Translations under genes and position numbers: made by a program
Shown: positions 6,902 to 35,493 of the stretch, one piece after another
Position numbering within the stretch: the first letter of the stretch is position 1
Layout: every line of letters starts with the position of its first letter
Notes under the pieces: model-generated
The model's input: the letters and a program-made list of their open reading frames with translations, nothing else
Told to the model about the DNA's origin: nothing
Database searches by the model: none
Assembly (NCBI GenBank): GCA_903813345.2
Contig: CAIIXF020000001.1
Location: 52,035,885-52,099,884 of the forward strand
Source: Owenia fusiformis
Taxonomy: Eukaryota; Annelida; Polychaeta; Sabellida; Oweniidae
DNA: 64,000 bases
Direction: 5' to 3'

Positions 6902-9095
6902 CATGAATCAATTTTATGCATAATTCAGTGCGTAAATCGAACAAAGCTATGGAAAACAATATTGGACAAAGTTTGAACGCATTTTGTTTCAGCATGAGAG
7001 AATTAGTGAAACAACTTACTGTAGTGAAACCTATCTATCATGTGCATTAAAATAGTCTATGAATAAAATTAAATGGTTGTAACATCGTATCACTACAGAG
7101 AAAGAGTAATGGATGTTTGATTTTGGTCACTGTGTGCAGTACTGTGGTATTTCATTGTTAATGATTTCACATTTTCGAAATGAATGCAGTTGCTTACGTC
7201 AGATCAAGCATGGGTGTTGAATATAGCCTAATTATATGCATCCCGTTAATTTGTTCTTAAATCACGGATACAATCATTAAATTAAGTAGAAAACGTATAG
7301 TTATATCGTTTCTACACTATTGTACTATTGTACTGATTCGAATGAGTATGATAAAAAACACTAAGTTGTTGAAGGTCTGTGAGATATTTCATACCCCTAA
7401 ATATTAAAGGGCAAATATTAGCATTTATCAAAGCATCAACCCCCGATATTTCAGTAAATCTCCAAAACTTTATTAAATCTAAACCCTGCTGACCCTCTTA
7501 CGAGGAAAATGTGCAATCGTTTTATAGATCTATACCCGGGGATCTATATAGCTCATTTCAATATGCTAGATAGATTCCAGAGAGATTAAAGAATGTTATA
7601 CTAGTTCACAAGTTTGATTTTCAGTATGAAAACATCATACTTTGGTAATCCAAGATGGACAATGATATAACCATAACTGACAAAAACGGTTTACTGACGG
7701 TTATTTATCATCAGTTGATTTTCGAAGCATCTGTTAGCGTCCATCCCATGGGATTTATTCTATTGTCAGTCTATAGGAATGTGACACCCAGTTCAAAACT
7801 CTGTGTGGTATATTGTGCTTATCATTAGGAAACGTAAGTACTTCAATCGATCTATTCTATTTATTTTTACAAGCCCGACGAATGTTTGATGGGATTCTTT
7901 ATGTCTTTTGCTAATGAAACATTGATTTTCCTTGCAGCTATGTACGAGTCAGCCCCCATAGCAACATCGAACTATTTAGTTCTTTTAGGTGCGATTTCAC
8001 CGGATAGTATTAGTCCCCATTTGTGTGTTCGAATATTCTATAATCAATGATAGGGAAAAATAACTGGCCGCGCCGGCAGCCATATTGAATAAAGTAGTGA
8101 GTTGTTGGGAAATGCTGTACAAAGAAGATCATTCGATCGTTTCTGTCTTCAAAAACTGGCAAAACATTAAGTTTGATTGGTCAACGGAACTTTCATTTAG
8201 TCATTTAGAATTAACCAATTAAATTGTAATTAACCAATTAAATATTAGTTGGTATTGATGATACATATCGAGTATTAACAATCGACGCCTATTTACAGAG
8301 GGACATAGGCCTAAATGAAAATAAAAAGACGAAATGTGAACAGGATTATTGTTAGCTCGATCTTTTTAATGTTAGTGAGACATGACGACAGCTTCAGGTA
8401 TCACTATACTGGAATTTTATTGACGTACAGTTTTATTCTGATGAAGTTGCAGTAATTCATCATGAATCTTTCAGACTGTTTTCAAATAAATACAAAAGGA
8501 AAATGAAATTCGTAATAGGATATCTTTTTTTCACATAAAGTTCACCTCGCTACTAAGACGGGATAATATATTATTTCATTAGTCATCTGAACTTATTTGA
8601 TTGACGATTAGGAGATAAATAACGGCTTATAAAGCTGAGGTTTACATCAATATTCAATCAGCTTAAAGAAAGATCATAATTGGATTAACAGATCGTCGTT
8701 TCCTTGGTTTTCTGACATGAAAATATCCTCGAAATATTGATTGAGGGTGAAGTAGCTCAGGTAGTATATAGCTGTTATGCGTGAAGAGCTGAATACCAAA
8801 TGTAAAACACACCGGACGATGGGTGTTGAGACTGGAAACAAACATAACGACGTTCCGGAGGTAACCGTGCTTCAGATGGAAATTGATTGTTATGATTAGA
8901 ATAAATCGACATTGTTTTCAAATGATGCAGTAGCAATCAACTCGTCACAGCAATCCATACAAACGTTTAAAATCGGAACAATCACCCAATGAAGATGGAT
9001 TTAGTTTTGATAAGCACTTTTTAGATAAAGAAAGGGACATCATTGATTGTTCTTGCAAAATACCCCGCACTTGATTGAATAATGCACATAGCGAA
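6902..9095. other. Intergenic, no gene seen
   Basis: Apart from the 3' UTR of the upstream gene and the presumed 5' region of the ankyrin gene, I see only A+T-rich sequence. There is a short tandem AATTAACCAATTAAAT-type duplication near 8210-8242. No long ORF or recognisable motif is present. Confidence 0.6.
7062..7067 (+). terminator. Poly(A) signal of the glycosyltransferase-like gene
   Basis: AATAAA lies 160 bases after the TAA stop at 6899-6901, a normal spacing for a short 3' UTR. Confidence 0.55.
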
Positions 9096-10808
9096 ATGGC
9101 AAGTCTTCATCGGGCATTGGATGACCAACATTGGCATCAGTTTCGCTTACTCGTAGAAGTCGGCGTCAACGTCAATGCTATTGCTAACGATGGCAAAACG
9201 GCACTTTTACGGATATGTAATTACAACATGTCTAATCGGCAAGCAACATATTTCACCAAACTGCTTCTTAAATATGGAGCAAACAAAAACGCTATAGACC
9301 CCGAGACTGGCTGTAACGTTCTTGGATTAGCAATCAAACACAATCGAGAATGCGTGTGTAGAGTTCTTCTACAAGAAATGGACTTTGACTTTAATCAACA
9401 GGATCACAACGGGAACACAGCACTACACCTTCTTGCCTTGGAAGGGACAATGCCCTACATTTTGATGAAGATTATCAATTGTATGGTGAAATTCGAAATT
9501 GTCATTGATGTAAGGAATAATGAAGGCTATACGCCTTTGATGCTGGCTTGTAAACGGGGGCATCTTGAAACTGCTAGAACATTCGCAAATATTGGCAACT
9601 GTTCTTTAACAATGCGTGACAACACAACGTTCAAATCTCCAATCGATCTTCTCCGTGAGGCAATTGAAATACCAACAGATGTAGACCCTCTCAAGAATAC
9701 AAAATGGAAACCAAATATCCAAGCAACTACTGCTTCGCTTTCTCAATTTGATTCATCCCATGTGACATCACGTCGACCTTCGTCTGCACTTCCCTCCGTC
9801 GGATCATCTGCGCCAACAATATATGGAAAGTCCATGCGAAGAAAACACCGTCCAAGAACTGCTCGCTTCAAGAATGTACGGAACAAGTCAAGCTCTTTGA
9901 TATCTCTTAACATGAACTCATTTGGGTCGTTGGCATTGGACTCTGATGTGAAGTTCGACACAGGTGTTTCAACAAGAGGACAGGTATCAACATTTCAGAA
10001 TGGAGTTGATTCCTATAAAGACTTCTCCAACCATTGCGAGTCAGTGGTAGTAGAGCGCGACCAGTCTTTCAGACCTATGTTCCAACAGTTGTTCAAGGTG
10101 AAAGAAGAATACGAATCACCGTCATTTAGACCAACTGCGTGTCCAGCGGAGCCCGAATCGTCAGAATTCGCAGAATCTGAATTGTTATCAGAGATAACAG
10201 AAAGCTTCTCTGGCACCCTGGATGAGACTACGACGGAACGACTCCGAGCATATATTGCGTTGATCAACCAACAGAAAAGGGAGCGTAGAGGGATTCCCGA
10301 TATACAGAAGATCGAAGAGGCTGCCTCGGCTATATCGCTCATCAAGAAACGTATTTCAAAACGACCAAGTGGCACGAGACCGGGATCTTCTTTAGCAAAA
10401 TTGGTATGTCAACTTACAACAAAGTCCGACCCGTCATCCATGAAGTCTCCCGATGGTGAAGGACGGAATTCACCTGGCAAGAAAACGATGAAACCTGGAC
10501 CAAGACGATCTATTTCAGCTGGTGGTAATATGTTTGCAGATATTGCAAAATCTCTGCAATCAAATACCTCACAGAGTGCATCAAATGAAAAACTTTTTGA
10601 TAATGAACAGACAAGTCCAATAGGGTCAAGGCCTACAAGTGCAGCTCGTAAACTAAAACTAAAGAATATTTTTAGCCTCAATCAATCTAAAACGAGTTTT
10701 TCATCTCAATCGACGAGTGCATCAAACAGTAATTCGAGTGTCTCACTGAGCACTGATAGTGGAAGTAGGGGTGTTGACAGTATGACCCCTATTGAAGAGC
10801 ACACATAA
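9096..10808 (+). CDS. Single-exon ankyrin-repeat protein
   Basis: This is one intronless frame of 570 codons. The ATG at 9096 is the first in-frame methionine. Residues of roughly 1-190 form about four or five ankyrin repeats: motifs include DGKTALLRICN, GCNVLGLAIKHN, NGNTALHLLALEG and EGYTPLMLACKRGHLE, each followed by a helix and a LLLKYGANKNA-type loop. The remainder is polar and Ser/Thr/Lys/Arg-rich (RRKHRPRTARFKN, SKRPSGTRPGSS, long serine runs near the C-terminus) and probably disordered. It has no signal peptide or membrane segment, so an intracellular adaptor is likely. Repeats followed by a long basic tail recall the ANKRD34 group, but I cannot assign an orthologue. The lack of introns could mean an old retrocopy or a naturally intronless gene. 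Confidence 0.85.
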   Translation: MASLHRALDDQHWHQFRLLVEVGVNVNAIANDGKTALLRICNYNMSNRQATYFTKLLLKYGANKNAIDPETGCNVLGLAIKHNRECVCRVLLQEMDFDFNQQDHNGNTALHLLALEGTMPYILMKIINCMVKFEIVIDVRNNEGYTPLMLACKRGHLETARTFANIGNCSLTMRDNTTFKSPIDLLREAIEIPTDVDPLKNTKWKPNIQATTASLSQFDSSHVTSRRPSSALPSVGSSAPTIYGKSMRRKHRPRTARFKNVRNKSSSLISLNMNSFGSLALDSDVKFDTGVSTRGQVSTFQNGVDSYKDFSNHCESVVVERDQSFRPMFQQLFKVKEEYESPSFRPTACPAEPESSEFAESELLSEITESFSGTLDETTTERLRAYIALINQQKRERRGIPDIQKIEEAASAISLIKKRISKRPSGTRPGSSLAKLVCQLTTKSDPSSMKSPDGEGRNSPGKKTMKPGPRRSISAGGNMFADIAKSLQSNTSQSASNEKLFDNEQTSPIGSRPTSAARKLKLKNIFSLNQSKTSFSSQSTSASNSNSSVSLSTDSGSRGVDSMTPIEEHT

Positions 10809-13588
10809 ACTATAAGTCAATACTGTCATCTCGTATAGTCACGTATATATCACCCATTTGAAAACTTGTCTTCGATCACTGATGATGTTCTAGAGTTAGT
10901 ACGTAACTTTTTTTTATCATGAACCGTGTTTGATTCCAAAAGGACAACATTTGACATTGACCTAATAATATATTACAAAAATGTACATGCTTTGAATATT
11001 TTGTGAACTGGTATTTGACATTGCTGGCTCGATCAAGCTGAGATGATTCCTACGTGCTTAGAGCTCCAACACATTCTTCACAACATCAACATCCACGACC
11101 GGAATTGTATAGCACGGGGCTTCAATGTTTTGCACCGTGTCAAATAATATAAAAATAACAGGAAAATTATAATCGCATTGACTCATATCAAGTGAATATT
11201 CGCATTTGATCAAATATGTCAACGGAATCATAAATGGATTAAACAGATTAGTTTCGATTAATATGAGTTTCAACCTTGGATAATTATGTCGCCAAAAGTG
11301 GTGACATATTGTTATAGTCTCTAACTTTTTTGTGGACGGTGTTCGGCATTTGGCGTTCGACGGGTGGCGGTCGGCGTTCTTCTGTAAATGGTGACATCAC
11401 ATTTTGCATGTTAATGCTTTGTTTCTATTCCCTCTCGATCAGGGGCAGACCCCGTCCCCTTGGGTGGGCCCGGAAAAAAATGGGCCCAAAAAAAGTTTTG
11501 GGCCTAAAAAGGCCTTAGGCCCCAAAAAGTGGTCCTTTTGATTATTACTGGGCCTCTGAGGCCTTATTTTTTAGTCTTAATATTTCAAAATTTGGGCCCA
11601 CTTTTTGGTTTTAGGGGTCCAATTTTTTTTCTCAGACCAGATATTTGCCCCCCCCCCCTTGTTGGTTCCCAGATCCGCCAATGATACCATTGCAGCAGTA
11701 CTTTCGAAATAAAAGTTACATTTGAGCTCTCACAGTTGATAACTTTTGTACATGTACCTGTGCCCTTCGACTCTATATATTATTTATATACACCCAAAAG
11801 TATTGGATCCCCTCCTGACTCAAGCATATGCCAATGTCACCATAGTATGTGTCATGTGTAATTTAAAAGCTTTTCCGAAGTTACGTTGATTTTCTTCAAA
11901 AACAGTACCCAGTTGGGTAAAAATGGTTTTTTTTTTTAAAATGGGACCCAAATTTAGGGATTTTTCGGTGAAAAAGTGACCCACTTTAGCGGCACGTCCC
12001 CATATAGCCAATATATTGGAGTACCCCCCCCCCGGACTATGGAGATATGCGATGTCTGTCTCGTATGTCTGAGTGGGGTAGGGTCCCATACTTTCGCACA
12101 CCCTCTATAATTGATATTCATATCAATTATCCTTCATTTAGTGTATTAAAAAATGTATAATAACATTATAAAATAAATTTGATATCCATTGGAAAATGAA
12201 TAACCCGAGGACATGGAGGATATCGCAACGATATGCTGGACGATATGCGGAGGATATTGTGACGATATACTCCGCTTGTTGACTTTTGTGAAATCTATTT
12301 TTCAATAATATTATACATTTAAAATAAGTACATTAAAGTACACTAATTGAAGGATAATAAGAACATCCTATGATTATTGATTGATATTGATTATTGGAAA
12401 TCGTAGTATTAGAAGGGAAAAGCTGTACACGCACTCTGATAATAGGAGTAAATCATTTAAGATTTCTTGCAAATTAATCATATACCATTTGAAGAAAAAC
12501 ATGGCTGTAACTTCTATTAATTTCAATATAATATGATTGATCAGGTCGCAATAAAGAAATATATAATATGTTAATACGAAATAAATATTCAATAGCAGTG
12601 ATTAATATTCTTATTAAATAATGTATTTATGCCATATTCATGCACTTGTCAATATCGCGTCTCTTAATTGTCATAGAAACGTAAATACATCGCAACAGAT
12701 TGTTATGGGATAATCATGACAATTAATCGTCAATAGCAATAATGCCAATGTTCTTACAATATTTTGTCACATTCTTTCAATCGTGCATATCACTTAAGAT
12801 TTGGTTGTTTTGTTGTAAAACAAAAAACATGCATGGGCGTATGCTTAGAATGCACCATAAACAATGTAAATTTTCAAAACTCCCCGTACCCCCCTTTTGG
12901 GACTTTGGGTGCTAATGTAGTGATGGGTGCTAGTGATGGGAAGAATGATAATCTTTTTGACCGTACAACTGTGTTGAATTTATTTGTCTTACATTTGAAC
13001 ATATATCGTCAATAGGTGCATTAATTAATCCATTTGCCTAGCTGTTTGTTTCTTATTTAGTTCTCTAAATCGGAATATAGTTACTTATGTTCCCCTGAGC
13101 AAATGAAAGTCGCCATACTCGACTATTTTCCATCAGTTTATGTAGATATATAACTTTATAACTACCCATCCAAGTAAAAACAGTGATAACCTGAATCAAC
13201 CTTCACATGAAACGTCATAATTAATGCGGATTAGTTATATTTCTGCATCGTGGGCCCCTAATCTAAATTGGCACGCGATCCTTTGTATCGTTTTCAAAGA
13301 TGTTCGGATAATGAACGTCATAACTCCAAATTGATACGACGAGCTGATCCTAGCAACGCAGGCATAACAAGATGAGTGTTTGTGTATGTGAGCATTAATT
13401 TGGATAAGAGTCTCTTCAAATCTTTGATTTGGGATAAGTGAAATTCATTGACACGATAATGGAATTTTTCTTCTTTCATTATGATAAAGTAAATATTGCA
13501 TATCGATGTCCATCTTACTAATGAGTAATGTAGTAAAATCTTTCGTCGGACAAGCATTTCAACCAGAAACTGCCAATTTTGAATTTAT
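10809..13588. other. Intergenic with low-complexity repeats
   Basis: No gene is seen. It contains a short TGTCACCAC-family element (11286-11421), a GGCCC/GGGCC-rich repeat (about 11440-11640) related to ones at 62640-62770 and 63740-63850, a poly(C) run (11650-11659 region), another C run near 12026-12036, and a run of short GATAT-containing motifs at about 12215-12290. The 5' flank of the next gene (about 13300-13588) has no obvious signals. Confidence 0.6.
11286..11421. mobile_element. TGTCACCAC-family element, short copy
   Basis: It begins ATGTCGCCAAAAGTGGTGAC followed by ATATTGTTATAGTCTC, and ends with GGTGACATCACATTTTGCATG and TTAATGCTTTGTTTC. Both ends match the larger relatives at 31498-32515, 51228-51373 and 57466-57983. 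It has no coding content. Confidence 0.6.
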
Positions 13589-15016
13589 ATGTACAGTATC
13601 ATGAAGACACTGGGATATTCAGGAAAGCAACCGGAATTAGCCTCCGGTGACCATGTTGGGATTCTGAAAAAGAAAATGGCGAACACCTCAAGGAAAAGAA
13701 CATCGACATTTTCCATGAAGGACCGATGGTCTAGAGAAACTTCGGATAAGTTACGGGAGAACTATTCACCAAAACCTCCACTCCGAACTACGAGGATTTA
13801 CATTAAGAACGGACAAACATATTCATACAAATTAGGCATACACTTTGAAAACTTTAAAAAGTACTTAGAAATCATACATGCTGATGGAGAAAAATACGAA
13901 CGACTAAAGCATGAAATGTATAAAGATGATCCAAGCGAGTCCAAAACTGACTCATTTGATCAGAATCTGGATATGATTTACAGATTATCTTCACCGCGGA
14001 AATTGAATCCAATAAGTAAATATGACCGCCCAAGGAATACTCCGAGAGTTTGTGAGTTACCTGATAAAAAGGTAGCGTTATTCGTACCAAGCTCGAAACT
14101 TGAAAGTATCTGGAAAAGTACGCTAAGAAATGGTGATTCAGCAACAGACATGGTTACAAAGAAGTACAATACGGAAGATAAGAATGTGTCAAAATCAATG
14201 GATCATATTGACAATAATAAAGGCAGTATAATTACAAGTGATAATGGCAAAAATCGGAGAAAATCCAAATTTTCAGTTTCCGCGTCCCTTCCTCCTATTA
14301 AGAGCTCTGAGACTCATAAAAATAACAGATTAAAATGTGAAACATATAACAATGGTGTTTCCTATGAAACAGATATTCCATCTATTCCAAATATAAATAA
14401 CAAGTCAACATTTAGCAGCTTATCAAAAAACAAAACAGTTCACAATAATCTCACATTACAAAATAATAAACCATCAGACAAAAAATCAACCAATGCTCTA
14501 CGAAAGCAAAGTAAACGCGTAGAACGACATGGAGAACAAATTTCAAATAACAATGTGTCTGATGATAAGAATAAATATGGAATGCATACACGGAAAGAAA
14601 TTCAACAATCAATCCTTGGTTGTTCAGAAACACGCTCAGATAGCGATCGATTTTCCGGTGATGATCCACGAAACAAAGCTCCAAAATATCGATACATTTT
14701 TACATCGTCTCCTACACCAGTACGAGTTTATGTACATTATATATCCGAGGAACAGCAAAATTCCAAAGCCATAAAACCACGTAACATGAGCCAGAGGACG
14801 TCCCTGTCTTCCGAGAGTACGTTCAGCATCCCAAGGGCGGCGGACGAGGCAAGAGCTAAGCTGACATCAAACTCAAGAAAGTTGCTGGCGAACAGACTGG
14901 TGTATGACAAACAATGTTTATCATTTCACCCACCTGAGGTTAGCTTTAGAAACATGTCAAGAACAGCACTGGTTACCTTGAAGGCTGCAAGACACGTACG
15001 AAATCATTTACTCTGA
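13589..15016 (+). CDS. Orphan basic, low-complexity protein (single exon)
   Basis: This open frame of 475 aa runs from ATG 13589 to TGA 15014-15016, with a second in-frame ATG four codons later. I do not recognise it. It is rich in Lys, Asn, Ser and Arg, has no signal peptide or membrane helix, and has no cysteine framework. Two parts look folded or conserved: residues of roughly 70-110 (TRIYIKNGQTYSYKLGIHF, then FKKYLEIIHADGEKYERLK), and the last ~65 residues (AADEARAKLTSNSRKLL ... HPPEVSFRNMSRTALVTLKA). The middle (about 180-400) is an Asn/Lys/Ser-rich linker. Codon use and length argue against a chance ORF. It converges with the ANKRD66-like gene 286 bases downstream. A nuclear or cytoskeletal role would be a guess. 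Confidence 0.7.
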   Translation: MYSIMKTLGYSGKQPELASGDHVGILKKKMANTSRKRTSTFSMKDRWSRETSDKLRENYSPKPPLRTTRIYIKNGQTYSYKLGIHFENFKKYLEIIHADGEKYERLKHEMYKDDPSESKTDSFDQNLDMIYRLSSPRKLNPISKYDRPRNTPRVCELPDKKVALFVPSSKLESIWKSTLRNGDSATDMVTKKYNTEDKNVSKSMDHIDNNKGSIITSDNGKNRRKSKFSVSASLPPIKSSETHKNNRLKCETYNNGVSYETDIPSIPNINNKSTFSSLSKNKTVHNNLTLQNNKPSDKKSTNALRKQSKRVERHGEQISNNNVSDDKNKYGMHTRKEIQQSILGCSETRSDSDRFSGDDPRNKAPKYRYIFTSSPTPVRVYVHYISEEQQNSKAIKPRNMSQRTSLSSESTFSIPRAADEARAKLTSNSRKLLANRLVYDKQCLSFHPPEVSFRNMSRTALVTLKAARHVRNHLL

Positions 15017-15156
15017 AGACAGACCAACAGACACAACAGCGGACAGACGACTCACTCGCATTATTGATAATATTAGTTGGAAGGACAAAATCAAGCACAC
15101 CATTTCTCGGATTACAGCAGCGATTCAACTATATCAAACATTATATTAAAAATAGT

Positions 15157-15172
15157 TTTATTTTCATTTATT
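15157..15172 (-). terminator. Poly(A) signals for the ANKRD66-like gene
   Basis: TTTATT on the plus strand at 15157-15162 and 15167-15172 reads as two AATAAA signals on the minus strand, about 130-145 bases after the stop. They lie within the space shared with the convergent orphan gene, so the two 3' UTRs may overlap. Confidence 0.45.
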
Positions 15173-15302
15173 TCTTGAAGCAAAATTAGTAATTAAAATA
15201 TATGTGTAGTGTATATTGCAACTATCGTAATACTAAAATATCAATGTTTGTACTATTACTGCTTTGATAGGATGACGAGATTTCTTTAGATTCCAGCTGG
15301 TG

Positions 15303-16533
15303 CTAGCCTTTCCCCTTCTTTGATTTGTTTTTCTGACTTTTAGTACCAGCTTTATTTGAGTCTTTATTTTTGATTCTCAAGTCCGAAGTAACTTGCAATG
15401 CAACATCGGGTAACGTCTTTATTTTTAATGATTCAGATAGTCTATTTTTCGTTGATTCGGATGTCAAATATCTCTTTTCTCTGGGCTTTGATGAATCTGG
15501 CCTATCGTCTTCATCATCCGATTCTTCAGGCTTGCCAGCATTCCTTCGTTTATCTCTCTGTTCTTCTTCAGCACTGAAAACAAAATGGTATGTATGTCTA
15601 ATACATGTACATCTGTATAATATACATAAAAATAAACATTATTTTATAGCTTCCAATGCTAAGAGCAATTGAATTTTTGTAAATCACAACTGGCAAAGGG
15701 CGAATTCAGGAATACGTTATAATGCAAATGAATGCCCTCGTATCGTGTTATAAAGGCCTAGTGGGGCACTCAGTATCGGCCACAAAACAAAGTTCAATTT
15801 GATAATACATGTAAGTCCTGTTGTTTGTTGTTATTACTGTACATTAAGCTTTGATTACCTTTAATACTGTGTATGAAAACTTACATGATTAAAAACTTCT
15901 GGCACTCTACTTGTCCATAACGTTCCGCAATATCCCGTGGTGTATCACCATACACATCTCTCTTGTAAACACATATGTTAGCGTTGTGTAGGGCTCTTAA
16001 CACATGGATACGACCACACTCCGCGGCGCAATGGGCGGGGGTCCAGCCGTTGTCCATACGAGGGTTTCCAACAGCACCATTGTTCAGAAGTAAACGGATT
16101 ACCTCAACGTATCCTGAAAAGTTAAATCACCATAAAATACGGGTCTTTTATAGGTTATGCATGTAGTAAAACAATTGAAATAACGTGATTGCAATCGGAT
16201 TATATAGCAAAGATGAAATAATCTACATGTTGTACTGCCCAGGTCGAGAAAGATTCGAAGCCTGAAACTCTTGCATTGTATTAAATGCCCGAGTAGTCGA
16301 GCATGTTCAATTAACCATGTCGTGTTCTTTAAGATATGATTGTCATCGCAATACTTTTAAATCAATAAATTGTATGTACATGTACCTTTAGTACAGGCCC
16401 AGTGTAAGGGCGTTCTGTTTCCCCACTCAACATCTTTTAGATTGACATCGTATTTTCCCACCATTAAGTACTCCTCGAGTGAGTCACAGTCACCTATAGC
16501 AGCTGCCTCGTGAAGTTCAAGTCCAGATGCCAT
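15303..16533 (-). CDS. ANKRD66: ANKRD66-like ankyrin-repeat protein
   Basis: Three exons on the minus strand, 16386-16533, 15885-16113 and 15303-15573, give 215 aa with matching phases (donors GTACAT and GTAAGT; acceptors TTTTCAG). The start MASGLELHEAAAIGD matches the family start; an upstream in-frame ATG at 16581 is less likely. Ankyrin repeats: residues of about 5-37, 38-72 (NRTPLHWACTKGYVEVIRL), 73-105 (NGWTPAHCAAECGRIHVLR) and 106-125 (YGDTPRDIAERYGQ). The tail is acidic and then lysine-rich (NKSKKGKG at the end), as in vertebrate ANKRD66, which is about the same size. The cellular role is not established. Candidate poly(A) signals (complement of AATAAA) lie at 15157-15162 and 15167-15172. 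Orthology is inferred from remembered repeat order and tail. Confidence 0.85.
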
Positions 16534-17621
16534 AGCGGCTATGGCCCTATATTTATAAATCAAACAAAATACAGTGTACATAGAAATGGGCTGATTCAGG
16601 ATCTAGATACTAGTGTGGCTATAAGTTAATTTTTTAAGTCTGTACATGTAAATACCAAACAACGACATATTTCACAAACCTGTTTGTCTGTTTTTTTTGT
16701 GTCAGTCTAGAGATAGAAAATTAATTTATTAATACAGTATTCAATATTCCGGATGATAGAATTATGTTAATAATGTTCCACTGGATCTAAAACAAGAATT
16801 GGAGCCACCTTGACTTCGAAGTATTATTTTAACCAAATTTCTCCATGTTGTATGAGGAACTAATATCTAAAATAATATAAACAGTTACATACGTTGAACA
16901 TACTATTTGATTCTGTCCAAACGCGACCCTATTGATGGTTAACAGTACGATAACATACCTGTTATTTACCTGTAAAATGCAATATGGCAGCCTATCAACG
17001 TTGTAGTAACAGTGACCTTGAATGTACACCGAACGAACTATGGGCGTGCAGATATACCCGGGAATTAACTAAAACGCATTCAGAATTCATATTGATTTTT
17101 GAAGTACGGTGAATGTTGACGAGTTTCAAAGCTCTGTTTTGTCTAATATCTGTTTTAATCACATAATTAAATTATTCTGCACAAACAATATTTTTATCCA
17201 ACGTTTCTATCTAATTAAAAAAGAATAATTCGATAAACCTTGTGCCTATTGACATATTAAAGGAATATTTCAAATATTATTAATTAAAGTGACAGTATGC
17301 CTTTTCCTTAGCAACCAAATATTCGGTCCTAAAAATAACAAAAATTATTATGGTTTGTGTATGCTATGAAACATTGCGATCCTCGTCCAGCTCATGTGTA
17401 AGTTACATACACACGGAGATATTTGAACTGCAAAATAATAACGAATTTGTCTACAAAATTAAAGGAAAAATGTTGGTGATTTTTCAATATATTGGCATGG
17501 TATTGTCCCTTTAATGTTAATACTGTCTAATTTCAATCTACTTTAATTTTCTGTGATTATGCCGAAACAAAATTAATTTTAACGTTGTTTGGAAAAATAT
17601 TTGGTTACTATTAACATCAAC
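16534..17621. other. Divergent intergenic region between ANKRD66-like and TIMP-like genes
   Basis: About 1.1 kb between two divergently transcribed genes. No ORF worth reporting. It should contain the promoters of both, and possibly an upstream noncoding exon of the TIMP-like gene. I see no specific motif I would defend. Confidence 0.55.
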
Positions 17622-20600
17622 ATGGCTATGTCAAAATATACTTATGATTTATTTTTAGGAATCGTTATTTACATGGTAACAATGGATTATACGTACTCAA
17701 TTATGGAGCACCCTCAAACGGTCACATGTGCCGTTGATTTTGGTGAGTGCAGTATCAGAATAATTTAAACAGCGCTAGTATTAATTTATTTTTTCTGGAA
17801 TATGTGTTAAAATAAAAAATAAGTAAGGTCTGTGATCGGAGCTAGTGAGTAGTGATATAAATAATGAAATCACAAGAATAAGATGACAAAGTAGCCTACA
17901 CTTTTCCTTATCCAATTTCTTGACCACTTTTCGGAGTGGGCGTGGCTCATCGATAAGAGCTTACCAAATACAGTGAATGCGAATGTGTTGTGTCACCCCC
18001 ATGGGTTTATCATGTCAAAGTCATGACTCGCGTGCCATGTTATCATAGGAGCAATGGTCATTATTAAACTATTGGAAAGTTGATCCCATCTCTCAGATGA
18101 ATATATTTTTTCTTATATTCCAGTATTTATGGGGAAGGTCGAAGGCTCCAAAAAAATCCGTGAAGATGGCAGGCAATTAATGCTTTACACAATAATACCT
18201 GGGACCAAAAACTTAGCACCAGTACGTAATGGATTTCTGACCATATTCCATTTGAAAATATGCGTAAAAACTACAACTTAATAAGTGAACTAGGTGCCAT
18301 ACATCTTCGAAATTAAGCTATCAAATAATCAAGTTTTTTCATGAATATTTTCTTTCATCTTGCCTATTTCTTGGGAGATGTTTTAACATATTTTAAAAAA
18401 CTTTTGCCAAGGGCCAAAGCAAGGTACTGTCCATTTTAAACTGTTTTATAGTTAGTCATTCCATTCCGTTTCACTTAAAGTCCATTCGCTTGCTCTAACA
18501 CTGGTATTTCTGGCGACAAAATGAACACATGTAAAGCAATGGACGGCTTCAAGAAAATAAAAACACTTGGCCATTGGTTCATTTCCAGAGCGGTAAAGAG
18601 TTTAATGCGGAACAAGATGTGAGACAATTGACTACGGGGATAGGTTCTGAAGACGTATTCTTCCAAGCACAACAAAAGAATAACAACGGTCTTGAGGAAT
18701 ACTTTATAACAGGTGTGAGGCCCCGTCAAACTTTATTAATTGACCATGCTTTAAAACTCAATTCACAGCTATCATATGTACGCGTACTTAAAAGTTCATT
18801 GAATTATCTACAGGATCACATGTGCACTGTGATGTAGATCGTTCTGTTTTAAATGTAACATTCATCTCCACGACTTTTCCCTGATCGATGTACCATGATG
18901 ACTTTTAATACTTACTATAAATGTTGGTGGAAATTAATCTTAAATTGATTGGTATAATAAAAATTGATAAATGTATTGGTTCATCATGACAATTTAATTA
19001 GAAAGCGAGTAAACCTTTTAATATATGACATAAAACCCCCAATAAATCCGATACTTGACCAGTTTAATAATACGGGTTTATGTAAAAAATTATGTTTATG
19101 TCAAATCAGCTGGGGTCAGTCGTTTTGGTCAGTTTGAGTGAAACATCCGATTTGGTACACAATGTTATAATTAATGTCTATGATAAACAGTACCTCAGTA
19201 GAACAATAACCTAAAACATCCATCATGATAAACCACGACATCTCATTTCTTCTCAGCCCTGAGGTTTCAGGTGAAACAGAAAGATGCTATGTCTGAGTAT
19301 CAGAATGGGAAACATCGTATCCAACCTGATCTCCAATTTCCAATTAATGATTTTCCTTGAATGTCCTTGGTTTTTCTACATGTACAATATTCCGTGTATA
19401 CATACGGACAGATATATTATGCCTGGGTACTGACATGTTAATTCTGAACAGGATTCTTCAATGAGGTAACAGGAAAAGTGCCACACCTAACAACCGATGA
19501 CTGGGTAATTAAACTTACACCTGAACTGGCCCACTCCTTACCTCGCCTAACACAGGAGTATGTACAAAACTGTAGATGTGAGGTGAGATATGTGTAATGA
19601 GTATTAAAAGTGAGACACTTTTTGTCAAGTATTTTCTCGGCAACTGATCAACCAAATTCACTGAAAATGTGTGCAAAGTAGCCCAGGAGTACAACACGGG
19701 CTTTCAATTAAATATGAAAAAATCAAGTAAATGTGATGTGAGTACTAAGAAGTTCAATATGGCATGTCAAAAGATCCCATACCGGAGCAACCCATTGAGA
19801 ACTTCAGACAGGTAGCGTTTGTACCAAAAAAGGGAATCAATTTAACAGGTAATTTTTCAGCAATGGATAAGCTAAATTCTTTGAAAACACTATTTGAGAC
19901 ATGTTAGGGTATCTTCAGCTCGTGCTATGAATATGTAAGAGATTGGTTACATATTATGTGAGTATTGTAGAATAGTGAAACAGTATGTCAAAATAACCAA
20001 TACCAGGCCCGTAACGGGGGGGGGGGAAACTGCGTGATTTTGAAAGAATTTTTCAAAAAGCCAAAAATTCTTCCAAAATCACGCAGTTTGTCACCATTCT
20101 GAGCAATTTTCAAGTGATTTCGGCCATTTTTGGGCAAAAGTTCTCAAAAGTGATCCCCCTGGAATTTTTCAAAAAGTGAAGCCCCTTGGCAAATCCTGTC
20201 TACGGGCCTAATAAATGTAAAAGTCACTTATTAATCGTTTCTAAGCTTAAATACTTTTTCGTTCTTAATCTTGCAATATAATTGACAGATGCTATTATAA
20301 CCTGATAGCTGGCATTCTCAGAGCTCCGGTAAGTGGTTTTTAGACATGCCATTTTGAATTTCTTAGTACTCCCATTACTTACATTGACATTTTTTATAAA
20401 TTTACAACTTGCTCATGATCCTCTTAGTCTACTTTGTACACATTTTCAGTGAATTTGGTTCATAAATTGCTGAGACAATACTTGTCAAAAGTTTCTCAAC
20501 TTTTTGAGACACTCGATATATGACACAAATTCCAAACAAATTCTTTTGTCAGGAGATATACAAGTCTCATTTTCTTATCTTATTTAGATCTGTCCCGAGG

Positions 20601-20743
20601 GTCGACCATGCCCAAAGTCAAATTGTATATACATGCCAAATGAGGAGATGTGCAGATTCAGCAGTTCAGTATGCATACATATAGACGAAGAGCAGTGTGA
20701 TTGGAAAAAGACAAGAGACTACAGAGGTTGTATGAAAGAGTGA
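17622..20743 (+). CDS. TIMP-family secreted protein with degenerate inhibitory N-terminus
   Basis: Five exons, 17622-17742, 18124-18221, 18589-18712, 19452-19582 and 20588-20743, give 209 aa, close to the ~210-220 aa of TIMP precursors; all phases agree. Residues of about 1-22 look like a signal peptide. EHPQTVTC (29-36) and the following VDFVFMGKV match the first strands of the TIMP OB-fold (HPQ..C.AD). EEYFITG (109-115) matches the conserved YLIAG-type strand. NCRCEIC (154-160) through EQCDW and YRGC form the cysteine-rich C-terminal domain. In place of the mature CxC that grips the metalloproteinase zinc, the sequence is YTY (23-25). The two partner cysteines are also gone (F97; the Thr128-Asp130 region), while C36 and C155 are kept. 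Metalloproteinase inhibition by the usual mechanism is therefore unlikely. An upstream first exon cannot be excluded, but the residues before HPQ are fixed. Confidence 0.82.
18814..18884 (+). other. Possible alternative terminal exon of the TIMP-like gene
   Basis: ATTATCTACAG precedes 18814 and gives an acceptor in the same phase as exon 4. It would add 23 residues (starting SHVHCDVDRS) and stop at 18882-18884. Use of it would truncate the protein after the YFITG strand. No poly(A) signal follows closely, and the pyrimidine tract is weak, so this may be chance. Confidence 0.2.
20027..20089. repeat. Perfect 16-bp hairpin in TIMP-like intron 4
   Basis: AAACTGCGTGATTTTG (20027-20042) and CAAAATCACGCAGTTT (20074-20089) are exact inverse copies, directly after a run of G residues at about 20016-20026. 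It is probably the end of a longer repeat that continues to about 20210 with further TTTTTCAAAAAG motifs. Confidence 0.55.
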
Positions 20744-20831: not shown

Positions 20832-20868
20832 AATAAAAATGTTCACTGATAAGAAACTTTTGTTTATT
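20832..20868. terminator. Opposed poly(A) signals between TIMP-like and LRRC42 genes
   Basis: AATAAA on the plus strand (20832-20837) is 89 bases after the TIMP-like stop. TTTATT (20863-20868) reads as AATAAA on the minus strand, about 258 bases beyond the LRRC42 stop. Cleavage ten to thirty bases downstream of each would make the two transcripts overlap by a few tens of bases. Confidence 0.5.
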
Positions 20869-21125: not shown

Positions 21126-24100
21126 CTATAAATATCCTGAAAGTACGTCCCAATCTTCAATGTCAAACCCTGCTGCAACAACTTGATCTTGTTTTGTTCG
21201 AGTATTTCTTTCACTATACTTTTGTGTATTTTTATTTTGGTGCCTTGATTGTCTTTCAAGATGAAGCTCTTTCAATGTTGGTTGAACTGGGTCAGTGTGA
21301 CAAGGGGATTTTGTTTGAGCACAGCCTGCCTGACTAGCTCTGTGTGATGAATTGCACCGAGGTTTGAGAATGAGGTTTTCTTCATCACTATTTAAGTCAA
21401 TTTCAGCTTCACCTGGTTTGTGTTCCTTAGTCACATTTTCAACAATATCATCTAAAGATAGAGTTTTATGGTCACTCTGAGATGTTTTTCTTGCTTCATA
21501 GTGTTGTTTATTGTGAATATTCCTGTCCATATCGAGTCTCATTAAATGTATCCTAGGGAACGCAGAATCCGCAGAGAGTTCGATAGTGTCATCAGCAACT
21601 GGAGGTTTCCTCTTGGCATCTGAAGTTAGAAATGATTTGTCATCTATATTCAAATCGATATTCTAGGAGCAAGGAAGAAAATTATTGATACCTGAATAAC
21701 CTGATAGTCACTCACTTGGCAGCATTTTTAAGTGGGAGGATGACTTGGACAATGCGTCCTCGAACTCCCGTGCAGTGATATATCACTGCGGCGGGCAGGT
21801 GTCTCACCGTAAGCATGGTAACATCGTAATAAACAACTGCCGTGATTGGTTCTAGTCCCATGCTCAGGTCGCGTGATTGTAAAATTTAGACAATTTCATT
21901 GGTTGAATTGCGCGTATTAACTAATAAACAACACGTGCGGTAAACTTTTATCAACACAACTTTTACTCAGAATTCCTTCCGCGGGGATTTGCTCTTATAT
22001 TTCATTGATTTTGGAATATTTTGACAAAATAATTATTGGTGAACATAAAAGAACATATATTTTATAAGTTGTGTGAAAAACAAGTACATCTGTGACAAAA
22101 AGGGGGACTATCTTCCCCAAATTTTGGGGATTTCATAATCTGCCCGCCGCAGTGTCTATACCGAGACACTGCATAGGAGTTCGAATGCGTCCTAAGTTTC
22201 TACCATTTTGTGAAGACATTTCCAATGAGGAAGTCCACCAAGTTCCCGAAATGAATATGCTACCAAAGTGACATCATGATAAACCAAAGGTGAAACAGAA
22301 AGATGGTATGAGTATCAGAATTCCAAAGTGAGCACACATCATTTATTTAGAATTTTCTGCCTCTCTCCAATTAAGTGTTATTGTTTATAATGTTAGTATG
22401 CGTTTACCCAGACTGTACTTCATTTGAATTTGAATTGACTTTATACTTCTTGGTTGCATACAAATACCTATTTACAAAAGGGTAACCTAGTAGTAGTACA
22501 TGTTATTGCAGTTCAAGGACAATGTCCAAAGGAACTCAACATCAATGGTGTAACAACAAGGCATTAACATGACAAAATGTCACCACCTAGTTGCTCACAA
22601 TATTAATAGTTCAATCTTAAGTTAGATTTGAATTTCTGAGAACTTGTAGATAATTTAAAAAAATTAATTGGTCAATTTGAAGCAAGTTGAAAAATACCTT
22701 TTTTGACCCTGAGAAGGACATTGAAGGTGGAATCCCAAATCTAAAGTCAGATTTGAACTTAAAAACTTAGTCAATTTGAAGCAAGATGAAAAAGACCTTT
22801 TTGACCTTGAGTTGGTCATTGAAGGTCAAATCTTTTTTGACCTCAAGAATCTCATTGAAGGTCAAATCTATAGTCAGATTTGAACTTTTAAGAACTTGTA
22901 GATGATTTTGAAAAAAATTGGTCAATTTGAAACAAGTTGAAAAATACCTTTTTGACCTTTTTTGACCTTGAGAAGGTCATTGAACGTCAAATCTCAAATT
23001 TAAAGTCAGATTTGAACTTCTCATAACTTGTAAATGATTTTGAGAAAAAATTGGTCAATTTGAAGCAAGTTGAAAAAAGACCTTTTTGACCTTTTTAACA
23101 TTTTTTGACCTTGAAAAGGTCATTGAAGGTAAACTCTTAAATATAATGTCAGATTTGAACTTCAAAAAATTTGTAGATGATTTTGAAAAAAATTAAAGTA
23201 AGTATTTAAGTTATTGGAAGTTGTAAGAATTTGTTACAGACGCTGATTGCCAACCGCTGATCACCGACCACCAACCCCCATGAAAAACGGAGACCACCAC
23301 AATATGACCATAACAATATTGGTGACATAACATAGTAATTAACTCTTAAATTAGGTCATTTTCTATAATACAAGGGAGACTATCTGAGTGAAAGCATAAT
23401 ATACATGTATTCACCTCAGTCAGTTACAACTTCCAATAATGTTATGTAACTGAAATCTATTAATTGGACAAAATCAAGATCGATTCATACTCACAAAAGT
23501 TTGTTAAGCCACTTTTTCTGACAGGCTCTTCTGTAATTGAAAAGAAAATTAACATTGTATAAAACCTGTGTACATTGAACATTTCTGCTGAGAGAAAACA
23601 TTGTTAGTAGGTGATCATTACAGAGAAGGTAATTTATACAGAAATCAGTAGAGTATGTGTGGAGGAAGGGTGTCCCCTAAAGACAGGTTTTACTGTATAT
23701 GGCAGATGGATACAATATATTTACAAAACTTGAAAATTGGACATTCATTAATTTAGTACTATACTAGTGGTATTAGAAAAAACAATAATGGTGTATTGGA
23801 ATTACAATACTGATAGTCTAAGATACATGAAAACTTCAGTGCAAATAAATACACATTTTGGAGAAAACATTACCTATTTAATACAGTTTTATACTCACTT
23901 GCAGCTCTGTCCTCTGTAAGACAATCTTTTATCCACTGTCCTATTACTGATGCAGCCCATCCGCTGTTGATGATGTCATAATGATGGAACTCCTCAAAGT
24001 CAATGTGTGTCATATTAAGGCTTATCTCGAGCTCTTTGATACTTTTAACCTGTGGATTAAATAGAACAATATTCAAAGTCATGAAACTTGCATAGTAATA

Positions 24101-27207: not shown

Positions 27208-30200
27208 ATGTTTGACGTGGCACTTGCTAATGCTGGTGCTCAAGTTGTACTTGCGACATCAAGTGATGAAAAACACCCTCCGGAAAACATGATAGACGGG
27301 TAAGTAGTTCTAAAATTTACTGTTTCACATATTATCGCCCACTTAATTTTTTCCTTTTTCCAGAGTATGGGTATGAGTGAGATAGTGACTCTATTTTAAC
27401 ATCTCATTTTAATGGAAAAACACTTGCATTTTAGACTACGTTAGATAACAAGTTTTAGCGCTCTCTCTCCCAACAGAAGTAAAAAAAGCACAAGTGAAAA
27501 GTACAAGTGATATTTTTAGTACATGAGTTTTAAAAACAGCAACAAGTGATCAAAGGCAGCATAATAATGCCAAAGTGATCCCGGAACACCTTATAAGGAA
27601 CACTGAAAAGGACTAAGAAGAAGAAGAAGAATTTGCATTCGTTTGACTTAACTTCTTAAAAGAGAGCTTCGTCTTCACTCTTTCAAACTAAGCCTGTGAA
27701 CTCACCGCGCCAATAAGTGTTCGTCGGCCAAATTTGACCGACGTTCTTTATGGTCATTTCTTCTGACGTCATCGTTGAGTCCGGAATTGACCAATAACAT
27801 GCGCATATTTAATTAGAACGCATTTGGTGTATGTTTCTTCAAGCTAGCTGATTGGTGGAAGTTCAGCGCGAAGGTCAAAAGTGATTTACCCAAACTGTCA
27901 CCGGTACCCGTCGTGGGGGCGGGCGAGGCTACTAAACTGTAATATGGTCTCTACTAGGCAGAGTGTAGTTTAACTAGACTCTACACGCAGGGTAGAGTAT
28001 GGGCAATCTGAGACAGGTTGTTTATTGTCCAAAAAATATCTGACTTGAAATAAATGCTGATATGATATAAGGTTCGCTTTTTCTCATTCGCAAAACTTGG
28101 CCCTATGTCTGCAAAAGGCTATGTTGTGAAAAGTTCCTAGACTTTCTCATTTCTTTCTTACATTTTTTTACATGATCCAATTAAAAAAATCAGGTAGAAG
28201 TAAAGATCGATAATCAACCGTACATAGTGGAAATATTGAAGCATACTGTATCTCTCTTGTAAAAATATACCGATCCTTTGTATTGATGCTGCAGATAAGG
28301 CATTTTTAGCAAGAAAAATTGCCATACATAAAATTCCTGGGGATTTTTGACTTCGTTCACATGTGGGCCCCTATTAGAATGGTCTGAAGGGTCTAATTTC
28401 AATTTTCTAAACGCCCTGGGCACTAATTACAAAGAATATGGTACATTAAAATAATTTAGCATCATAATACACAGGAATTGCATGCATTTATTTGTTAACA
28501 TTTGGTTTGATTATGAAGGATCTGTACATGTATTGTATAAATACAATTAATACATGTATCTGTATAGAATTTGTTATTGTATTGCAGTCAAACAGAAACA
28601 TTCTGGACATCAACAGGGATGTTTCCACAGGAATTCATCATCTCATTCCAGCAGCTTATGAATGTAAATACAATCAAAATGGACACATTTAATGGTAGGT
28701 TTCAAAAGACTAGTATAAATGGTAGTGTCTGTCAATGTCAAATGTTATTATCCCAGCACAGCAAATGTAGTCCAGGATTGATGAAGGGAAGCCTTCCATT
28801 CATTCATCCATCCATCAGTTCATCGGTAACTGGTCAAGTCGTACCCAAGACAACTCGTACCCAAGTCAAGTCGTACCCAAGACAACTCATACCCAAGTTT
28901 ATGTTTTGTTTTCAGTCAAGTGTTGGAATGGGAATGGGTATAGATATTCGTATTATAATTGTTACATACAGTTCAGAATAGTTTGAAGTATGTAGAAGAG
29001 TTTTTGGAAGAAATCCATTTAATTTTTTGACATTTTGAGCTTTGAAAAATTAAGTGTCAATCTATTTTGACTATTATTTTATATTGGTCACAGATTCACG
29101 ATGTTTGAAGGAAGAGACCTATGTTTATTCCACATATTCATAATCATTGTTCAAAATTATAGAGGTATTTTTGTCTGTTACTGAGTGTTTGGAACACGTG
29201 TCAGATCTTCAAGATAGTATTATTAAAAATATAAAGATTTATCAAAACTTGGGCCTAATTTCTCCTTTAACAGATAATCTATTTATGATTTCATATTATC
29301 AGATTAAAGAATGTTAATTCTAAGAAGTCACATTCATAAAACTTAGCAATAAAATATTCTCAATAATATTATATTATTCATACATAATATAATACACTTC
29401 GTATACATGTGCTCAAATATAATCCAATTAAGTTCAACATGGAAAAGAAATTAACAGATTAAACTCTGTAAACTTTATGTAAATGCACTTAGCTAAATTA
29501 ATTGTTTGATTCATTTGTAGAAAAGTTACTGTTGAAATTATATTCTTTATATATATGTATGACAGAAAAAGTTGAGAACAAGCCCTTCAAAGCACTTCTT
29601 TTATTTAAAAAAGGTGATCCAAGTTAAAAAATGATTTGCTTAGTCCATTCAGAAAAAATGCCTTCTAAATTCAGAAAAAATATTGAGGCTTATTTGAGTC
29701 ACATATTAACAATAAAACATTATTATACAGACTCAATTTGTTTTCCTAATATGAACCCATAATACTGAAAATAAACTTGGGCATTAGTTGTCTTGGGTAC
29801 GAGTTGTCTTGGGTACAAGTTGTCTTGGGTACAAGTTGTCTTGGGTACGAGTTGACTAGGAAGAGGTTCATCTGTCTGGTTGATAACTAAAAAGACAGTT
29901 GATAGATTTAGGTCAAATTTTATAGGCCAATGTAATTTCTGAAGTGCATTGGACAATAATTCCGAACTGAAAGGATAGGTATCGATATGGTGAACTGAAT
30001 TCAACAATGTTTTTCTCTTAAACCAATTATTGAAAACATTTTGTAAAGAAACACGATCCTTTATGTAATGTTGACTGATTGTCAACAATTTAATGCGAAA
30101 ATTATTTATATATATTTTAAATAACTGTTTTTGTTAACATTTTTTGTTTTTTAGTGCAATTGTTTTTTGTTCCTCTCACCAATTCTTCAGAATGAAAAAA

Positions 30201-34417: not shown

Positions 34418-35493
34418 TTAAATCATCTTAAAGTCTTTGATAGGTCCCCAAAACATGTTAGCGTTTTCATCAGTGTCATAAAAATAGTCAGAACTTGCTT
34501 TAACAAACTCCTGACATGATATTTTGCCATTTCCATCCGTATCAATGAAGTCAAATTGAGGCTTCAAGTAATCGGGGTCTAGGCCATAGGCATCCCAGAA
34601 AACCTTGTATTCTGCCATATCAATGATACCATCTCCATCCAAATCCAGGACTCCGAACCATTTTTCACCCCACTCATCGACTGTGGGTGGGCTGTTCGGA
34701 TCATTTCGATAATTATTGTCGTCAATGATCCATTGTGTTATGTTGGTCGCGGTTTGAAAATATGACGGCATGTTTTCACAATAAAACGTAAGGACCTCCT
34801 CAGCTTTGGCTCCTGTGAGATTTCCTGAAATGTAAAATTAAAGGAAATAAATTGGACAGAACGGATTTGCTTACAATACTATACGTTTTGAGACACAGTT
34901 TACCCCTTTAAAGGAATAATTGCTTTTAGATGAGGTGGAAAACGTAGAAATGAGATACCCTTACGGTCAAGGAATAAAAGACGGAATTCTCAGTCACGCA
35001 AGGGGTAGCAGTCAATACTAGTGTTAGTCAAACGTTTTATTTTTAATTTTATTTTATAACTCACTCTTATATTACTAATTCATTTTATCAATGGGATCTT
35101 CAATGGGATGAAACACTCTACTTCTAGAACTCACTGTACTGTTTCGATGAACATTCACTCTATGCATGAAGCCAGGGAGACGATGTTAAGGCATTTTAAC
35201 TTTTTGTACATGTAACTTTTATATTACTCGTTTTTACCTTATATCATTGTATCCATGTAACTGTCTAAATGAATAGACGCAAATAAATAACAAATACATA
35301 CAGTAGTTGAAAATAAAAATATCTTATATTCACCTATTTTGATAATCTTCTCAGCTGCAGTCTTACAGTCCTCTGCGTCCCACACCCCATTCTTATTGAA
35401 ATCATTCACCATCACCTTGGTTACTGTCTTTTTCAGCCAGAATATTGGGATATCCTTAAGTTTACCCATATCTACTGCATATACTGACGACAT
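34418..35493 (-). CDS. Sarcoplasmic calcium-binding protein-like EF-hand protein
   Basis: Two exons on the minus strand, 35334-35493 and 34418-34824, give 188 aa, a normal length for the invertebrate sarcoplasmic calcium-binding protein/calexcitin group. Three canonical EF-hand loops are visible: DFNKNGVWDAED (31-42), DLDGDGIIDMAE (114-125) and DTDGNGKISCQE (148-159), each with acidic residues at positions 1, 3 or 5, 9 and 12 and Gly at 6. The region where hand 2 is expected (about 70-95) lacks a good loop, as is common in this family. The start MSSVYAVDMG at 35493 is preferred over the upstream in-frame ATG at 35562, which would add a Lys/Arg-rich tail. These are soluble cytosolic calcium buffers or sensors. 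A related luciferin-binding or calexcitin assignment is possible. Confidence 0.85.

Follow-up and report, generated by a model that had tools for sequence, protein, structure and literature searches.

Gene structure and family assignment

The DNA analyzed here, a stretch of 64,000 nucleotides referred to below as the window, contains a TIMP-like gene at 17622-20743 on the forward strand. Elsewhere in the window, Pfam matches mark ankyrin repeats at 9075-10808 on the forward strand and, on the reverse strand, EF-hands at 34418-34837, an XendoU endoribonuclease at 38002-38316, and pieces of organic anion transporter (OATP) sequence at 45119-45502 and 60031-60330. Upstream of the TIMP-like gene, the segment at 15900-16540 on the reverse strand appears ankyrin-repeat-like by eye.

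The TIMP-like gene has five coding exons, all on the forward strand, separated by GT-AG introns in phases 1, 0, 1, and 0, and its open frame encodes 209 residues. Exon 1 (17622..17742) carries a hydrophobic N-terminal stretch, the HPQ motif (residues 30-32), and C36, which corresponds to Cys13 of TIMP-1; the two CxC positions fall within it on Thr24 and Ser26 in an ungapped register, and it ends at a GT donor in phase 1. The first strands of the N-domain are encoded by exon 2 (18124..18221), which contains no cysteine. Exon 3 (18589..18712), also without a cysteine, covers the residues that face Cys70 of TIMP-1 (95-99) and the YFIT of the YFITG strand. In exon 4 (19452..19582), D130 takes the place of TIMP-1 Cys99, and the exon also supplies C155 (Cys124) and C157 (Cys127). 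Exon 5 (20588..20743) encodes the C-domain, with C160, C166, C171, C180, C187, C195, C206, and the CxW tryptophan W197, and carries the stop codon. An AATAAA at 20832..20837 on the same strand, 89 bases 3' of the stop codon, is a possible polyadenylation signal (motif match only).

An in-frame stop lies at 17580, upstream of exon 1. When the bases of the coding sequence were shuffled, the frame remained open in 0 of 20,000 trials. Codon-usage log-odds of 9.9 for the true frame, against 5.3 and 8.9 in its alternatives, barely separate the frames. Intron 4 contains a 70-nt inverted repeat, 86% complementary, with arms at 19620-19689 and 20421-20490, suggestive of a mobile-element insertion.

We assigned the protein to a family using profile and sequence comparisons. 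The Pfam TIMP profile (PF00965) matches it with 35.2 bits (E 1.4e-8) against a gathering score of 23.1 bits, and the alignment runs from residues 29-197 to positions 8-183 of the 183 in the profile; for comparison, human TIMP-1 and TIMP-2 score 237.9 and 268.9 bits. Local alignment scores of 70 against human TIMP-1 and 82 against TIMP-2 were each equalled by 0 of 1,000 shuffles. The phmmer matches to solved TIMPs were weak, the best (TIMP-1) having an E of 0.043 and ranking below four matches to BTLA. Because the profile and the shuffles support membership and the phmmer matches are nonetheless weak, the predicted protein is best described as a remote TIMP homologue and no close relative of the vertebrate TIMPs. 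We dismissed the BTLA matches (E 0.022-0.032), which cover residues 164-202 only, as a chance likeness of cysteine pattern.

No NCBIfam profile matched the protein, and the window contains no second TIMP copy, the best tblastn match beyond the gene's own exon pieces having an E of 2.0. Pattern scans for relatives gave one match in the viral_contigs collection and nine in genome_contigs, none of them a relative; these collections are not meant for animal genomes. An AlphaFold model made without an alignment had a mean pLDDT of 32.1, with none of its 209 residues reaching 50, and is uninformative on the OB-fold.

Cysteines kept and lost

The protein has ten cysteines, at residues 36, 155, 157, 160, 166, 171, 180, 187, 195, and 206. 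There are none in residues 1-35 or 37-154; thus Cys1, Cys3, Cys70, and Cys99 are absent under any alignment. We aligned the protein with TIMP-1 and TIMP-2 in three MAFFT runs, and in all three, eight of its cysteines face Cys13, 124, 127, 132, 137, 145, 166, and 174 of the human proteins, leaving C180 and C206 without a counterpart. The third pair of the N-domain, Cys13-Cys124, is retained as C36 and C155. A sequence-only reading of this DNA had claimed that both bonds of the inhibitory edge were lost together and the third kept, and the distribution of cysteines bears this out. The other elements it had listed as kept, namely HPQ, the YFITG strand (residues 111-115), and the C-terminal cysteine cluster, are all present in the 209-residue frame.

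The residues that took the place of the two downstream partners are placed with unequal precision. D130 stands opposite Cys99/Cys101 in all three MAFFT runs, in agreement with the segment Thr128-Asp130 proposed for this site. The counterpart of Cys70 is unsettled within residues 95-99: F97, the residue originally proposed, faces it in the phmmer alignment, whereas the three MAFFT runs give Q99, Q99, and D95.

The register at the N-terminus differs from the one first suggested, in which YTY (residues 23-25) replaced CxC and formed the mature N-terminus. Residue 1 of TIMP-1 lies at position 3 of the Pfam profile and residue 29 of the TIMP-like protein at position 8, so that an ungapped extension of the alignment places Cys1 on Thr24 and Cys3 on Ser26. 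MAFFT put Cys3 on Ser26 in all three runs and Cys1 on Thr24 in one; in the other two, Cys1 was parked at residue 1, distant from its neighbors. Neither Pfam nor MAFFT favors the YTY register. Because that register would need a one-residue insertion between CxC and HPQ, the accompanying point about the Tyr codons, that a single step separates each of them from a Cys codon, is not secure.

The hydrophobic stretch of exon 1 (residues 10-20, mean Kyte-Doolittle hydropathy 2.48) is probably a signal peptide. We scored cleavage sites by the von Heijne method; it was the sole method applied, and among the 32 sites tried the best was between Ser26 and Ile27, with a weak score of -2.26, again at odds with YTY as the mature N-terminus. 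If cleavage does occur there, the entire CxC segment would leave with the signal peptide.

Comparison with known TIMPs

To judge how unusual this pattern is, we used the consensus residues tabulated for 226 TIMPs (Clouse et al. 2015, PMC4807446, Table 2), equating columns 372 and 440 of that table with Cys70 and Cys99 by order and by neighboring residues. In the table, columns 372, 440, and 479 (Cys124) reach the 90% threshold for Cys. The two CxC columns pass lower thresholds only, 70% for column 150 and 80% for column 153, although incomplete transcripts may have lowered the frequencies of N-terminal columns in the survey. By this measure the predicted protein is without two of the three most constant TIMP cysteines and keeps the third, Cys124. 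Since both columns are Cys at the 90% threshold, the joint absence of Cys70 and Cys99 is not ordinary family drift.

According to the same table, column 572, seven before column 579, is Cys in protostomes, Asteroidea, Crinoidea, and Holothuroidea, and not in chordates (PMC4807446). C180 stands seven residues before C187, which matches the spacing of these columns. With C180 at column 572, the C-domain resembles those of ordinary TIMPs from non-chordates, which would confine the change to the edge. C206 may be the partner of C180, in which case free cysteines are not implied; in Drosophila TIMP, too, a cysteine that follows the CxW motif closes the sequence. We had considered that the extra cysteines might be free and cross-linking, as in the scallop protein Sbp8-1, and dropped this as a default because C180 occupies a common protostome TIMP cysteine site.

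The inhibitory TIMPs (human TIMP-1 to -4; MEROPS I35) share with the TIMP-like protein the two-domain layout, HPQ, the C13-C124 pair, six more C-domain cysteines, the CxW near the end, and five coding exons. They differ from it in having CxC, Cys70, and Cys99, and in lacking equivalents of C180 and C206. Five exons were reported for 132 of 142 molluscan TIMP sequences, four for 25 of 41 echinoderm TIMPs, and two for 10 of 13 from placozoans and cnidarians, in the sections of PMC10755359 that we compared. The number of exons found here is thus suggestive of a mollusc-like host.

Several TIMP homologues with altered N-termini have been described. The echinoderm TIMP-like proteins (PMC8467561, PMC4807446) also lack the N-terminal cysteines; the account in PMC8467561 describes loss of these cysteines and/or HPQ and states that such forms arose repeatedly. 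In contrast to them, HPQ is kept here and both downstream partners are gone, a comparison made through the survey consensus rather than through individual sequences. The bivalve pseudo TIMPs are molluscan Pfam-TIMP proteins with an altered N-terminal structure, typically with five exons. They are defined by a TIMP/NTR match in Pfam, PANTHER, and PROSITE without a match to the SMART NTR model, and make up 55 of 144 molluscan putative TIMPs (PMC10755359); our protein was assessed by Pfam alone, and the passages compared do not discuss the cysteines of pseudo TIMPs.

Three further TIMP relatives were compared. The scallop byssal protein Sbp8-1, a TIMP homologue without inhibitory activity, has two additional C-terminal cysteines, but according to the excerpts compared it keeps all 12 canonical cysteines, and its cloning primer encodes CTC (PMC5975577). 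The hookworm protein AceES-2 (PDB 3nsw) is a netrin-domain relative of TIMPs that lacks an N-terminal cysteine, for which no MMP inhibition was seen; unlike the protein described here, it has a single domain and retains one N-terminal bond, and hookworm proteins missing the second cysteine are also in print (PMC3679795, in part). Holothurian tensilin is a TIMP homologue with a proposed matrix-stiffening role, but it keeps the N-terminal cysteines, spaced by 2-3 residues, and its C-terminal tail is distinct. By the definition given in the portion of PMC10381214 considered, a tensilin has a hydrophobic and then hydrophilic tail past the 12th cysteine, with two more cysteines. The TIMP-like protein has no N-terminal cysteines, and its tail after C195 is 14 residues long with one cysteine.

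In the literature we searched, covering the texts of papers rather than the sequences underlying them and in part as excerpts, no two-domain TIMP is described that keeps HPQ and has lost all four edge cysteines. TIMP relatives without the N-terminal cysteines were known already; what the predicted protein appears to add is that both partners of the edge are also gone while HPQ is kept.

Alternative explanations and proposed role

The loss could have been an artefact, with CxC carried by an unannotated first exon or erased by sequencing errors. The modeled exon 1 does have a weak signal-peptide score, and it holds two AG dinucleotides, at 17658 and 17708, the latter directly before the HPQ codons and in phase 0. 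However, among the 15 CxC tripeptides in the forward frames of 7,000-17,622, only one, at 7185, lies at a signal-peptide-like distance behind a Met (24 residues); that tripeptide sits 10.4 kb upstream, past two long forward ORFs. Another, at 9351, has its Met 41 residues before it and sits inside the ankyrin ORF. HPQ occurs seven times in the six frames of the window (five on the forward strand, two on the reverse), with a TIMP cysteine three residues on only at 17709, which is also the sole forward-strand HPQ before 25346. A missed first exon would not suffice in any case, because it could supply at most Cys1 and Cys3, whose partners are absent too (exons 3 and 4), and a restored CxC would stay unpaired. 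Because exons 1, 3, and 4 each hold lost positions, neither a missed first exon nor a single sequencing error accounts for the loss, and we regard an artefact as extremely improbable. A more serious alternative is that the gene is a surplus TIMP paralogue decaying under relaxed constraint, in which the edge was lost for want of selection and stops have not yet accumulated. Bivalve TIMP families are large and duplicate often, and the pseudo TIMPs that fail the SMART NTR model are suggested to stem from excess copies with N-terminal structural changes (PMC10755359, sections compared); the weak signal-peptide score and the transposon-like repeat in intron 4 point the same way. On the other hand, all five exons are open, every splice site is canonical, and no base shuffle kept the frame open. 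The protein retains eight canonical cysteines together with HPQ, YFITG, and the tryptophan of the C-domain. No edge cysteine is left unpaired: each edge bond has lost both its members, a pattern that fits the loss of whole disulfides from a folded protein, whereas undirected decay does not predict the loss of both partners. We judge decay unlikely. The earlier suggestion that the fold may have been maintained for a new role is compatible with an open frame whose splice sites are intact and with the C-domain cysteines that remain.

A last alternative is that the protein is still an inhibitor, its ridge held non-covalently, or another surface (a loop or the C-domain) binding a particular metalloproteinase of the animal. 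In TIMPs it is the backbone of residue 1, not the Cys side chain, that chelates the zinc, and some residual zinc binding by the TIMP-like protein is conceivable, as loss of the cysteine alone leaves the chelating groups. HPQ and the core behind it are also retained, and in the case of ADAMTS4 the sC-connector loop is primary, with the N-terminal tail assisting, according to the passages compared (PMC7308558). Against this, what enters the protease cleft is the N-terminal segment together with a loop that ends at Cys70 (Cys68 in TIMP-3), the two being linked by a disulfide and residue 1 sitting above the zinc (PMC9409782 and PMC7308558, in part), and in the sections considered a TIMP-3 with Cys1 changed to Ser showed no metalloproteinase inhibition (PMC7308558, PMC5884528). 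The protein described here also lacks Cys70, the anchoring cysteine of the loop itself, and the second bond. With both edge bonds absent and the single substitution in TIMP-3 reported to be inactivating, the protein has most plausibly lost ordinary inhibition, and a surviving inhibitor is quite improbable.

We favor the reading that the gene encodes a probably secreted, two-domain, divergent, non-inhibitory TIMP paralogue of a non-chordate animal, most likely a mollusc or some other protostome, with its protease-binding edge dismantled, and give it a probability of roughly 0.7. Provided that it is expressed, the protein is very probably non-inhibitory. Mechanistically, the 1-70 and 3-99 bonds would no longer hold residue 1 in place above the zinc of the protease, and tight 1:1 inhibition of matrix metalloproteinases would thereby be lost, while the OB core would still be tied to the C-domain through C36-C155. 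The protein might then act outside the cell, without inhibiting proteases, through its C-domain or through contacts with the matrix, as proposed for Sbp8-1 in byssus and for tensilin on collagen. In the excerpts compared, Sbp8-1 polymerizes through its extra cysteines and did not inhibit type IV collagenase, Sbp8-1 and the Trx tag control both raising its activity (PMC5975577); tensilin aggregates collagen fibrils (PMC10381214). Because Sbp8-1 keeps CxC, it offers an analogy of role and not of cause, and a matrix or adhesive role, suggested by these analogies, is tentative and somewhat less likely than not. At somewhat less than an even chance, we would also entertain a fuller version: a TIMP scaffold stripped of its whole inhibitory edge and maintained by selection as a non-inhibitory extracellular protein. 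It would be either a component of matrix or adhesive or a C-domain carrier or decoy, competing for metalloproteinases with the inhibitory TIMPs, and would belong to an orthologous group whose two edge disulfides disappeared jointly.

Should the gene prove to be expressed and selected, it would represent a natural separation-of-function TIMP that keeps everything except the protease-binding edge, and could show which TIMP activities (matrix binding, cell signaling, adhesion) need no protease inhibition. In large invertebrate TIMP families, the absence of all four edge cysteines would then be a clear sequence mark, flagging copies for which annotation as protease inhibitors is unwarranted.

Repeats in the window

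A tandem array of a 48-bp unit, 21.7 copies long, spans 47201-48236; forward frame 3 has one stop and a 337-residue ORF of a repeated 16-mer, and the five other frames have 18-39 stops. An array of a 16-bp unit at 28835-28912 recurs inverted about 0.9 kb away, at 29761-29838, each copy inside an ORF of about 136 residues, on opposite strands. A dispersed repeat rich in AAGGTCA-type sequence is found in at least three places (22555-23203, 31684-32513, and 57665-57852), the second inverted with respect to the other two. The sequence TACATGTA occurs 32 times in the whole window, against 2.3 expected from base composition; it is common in bivalve DNA, which offers no more than a lead on the host.
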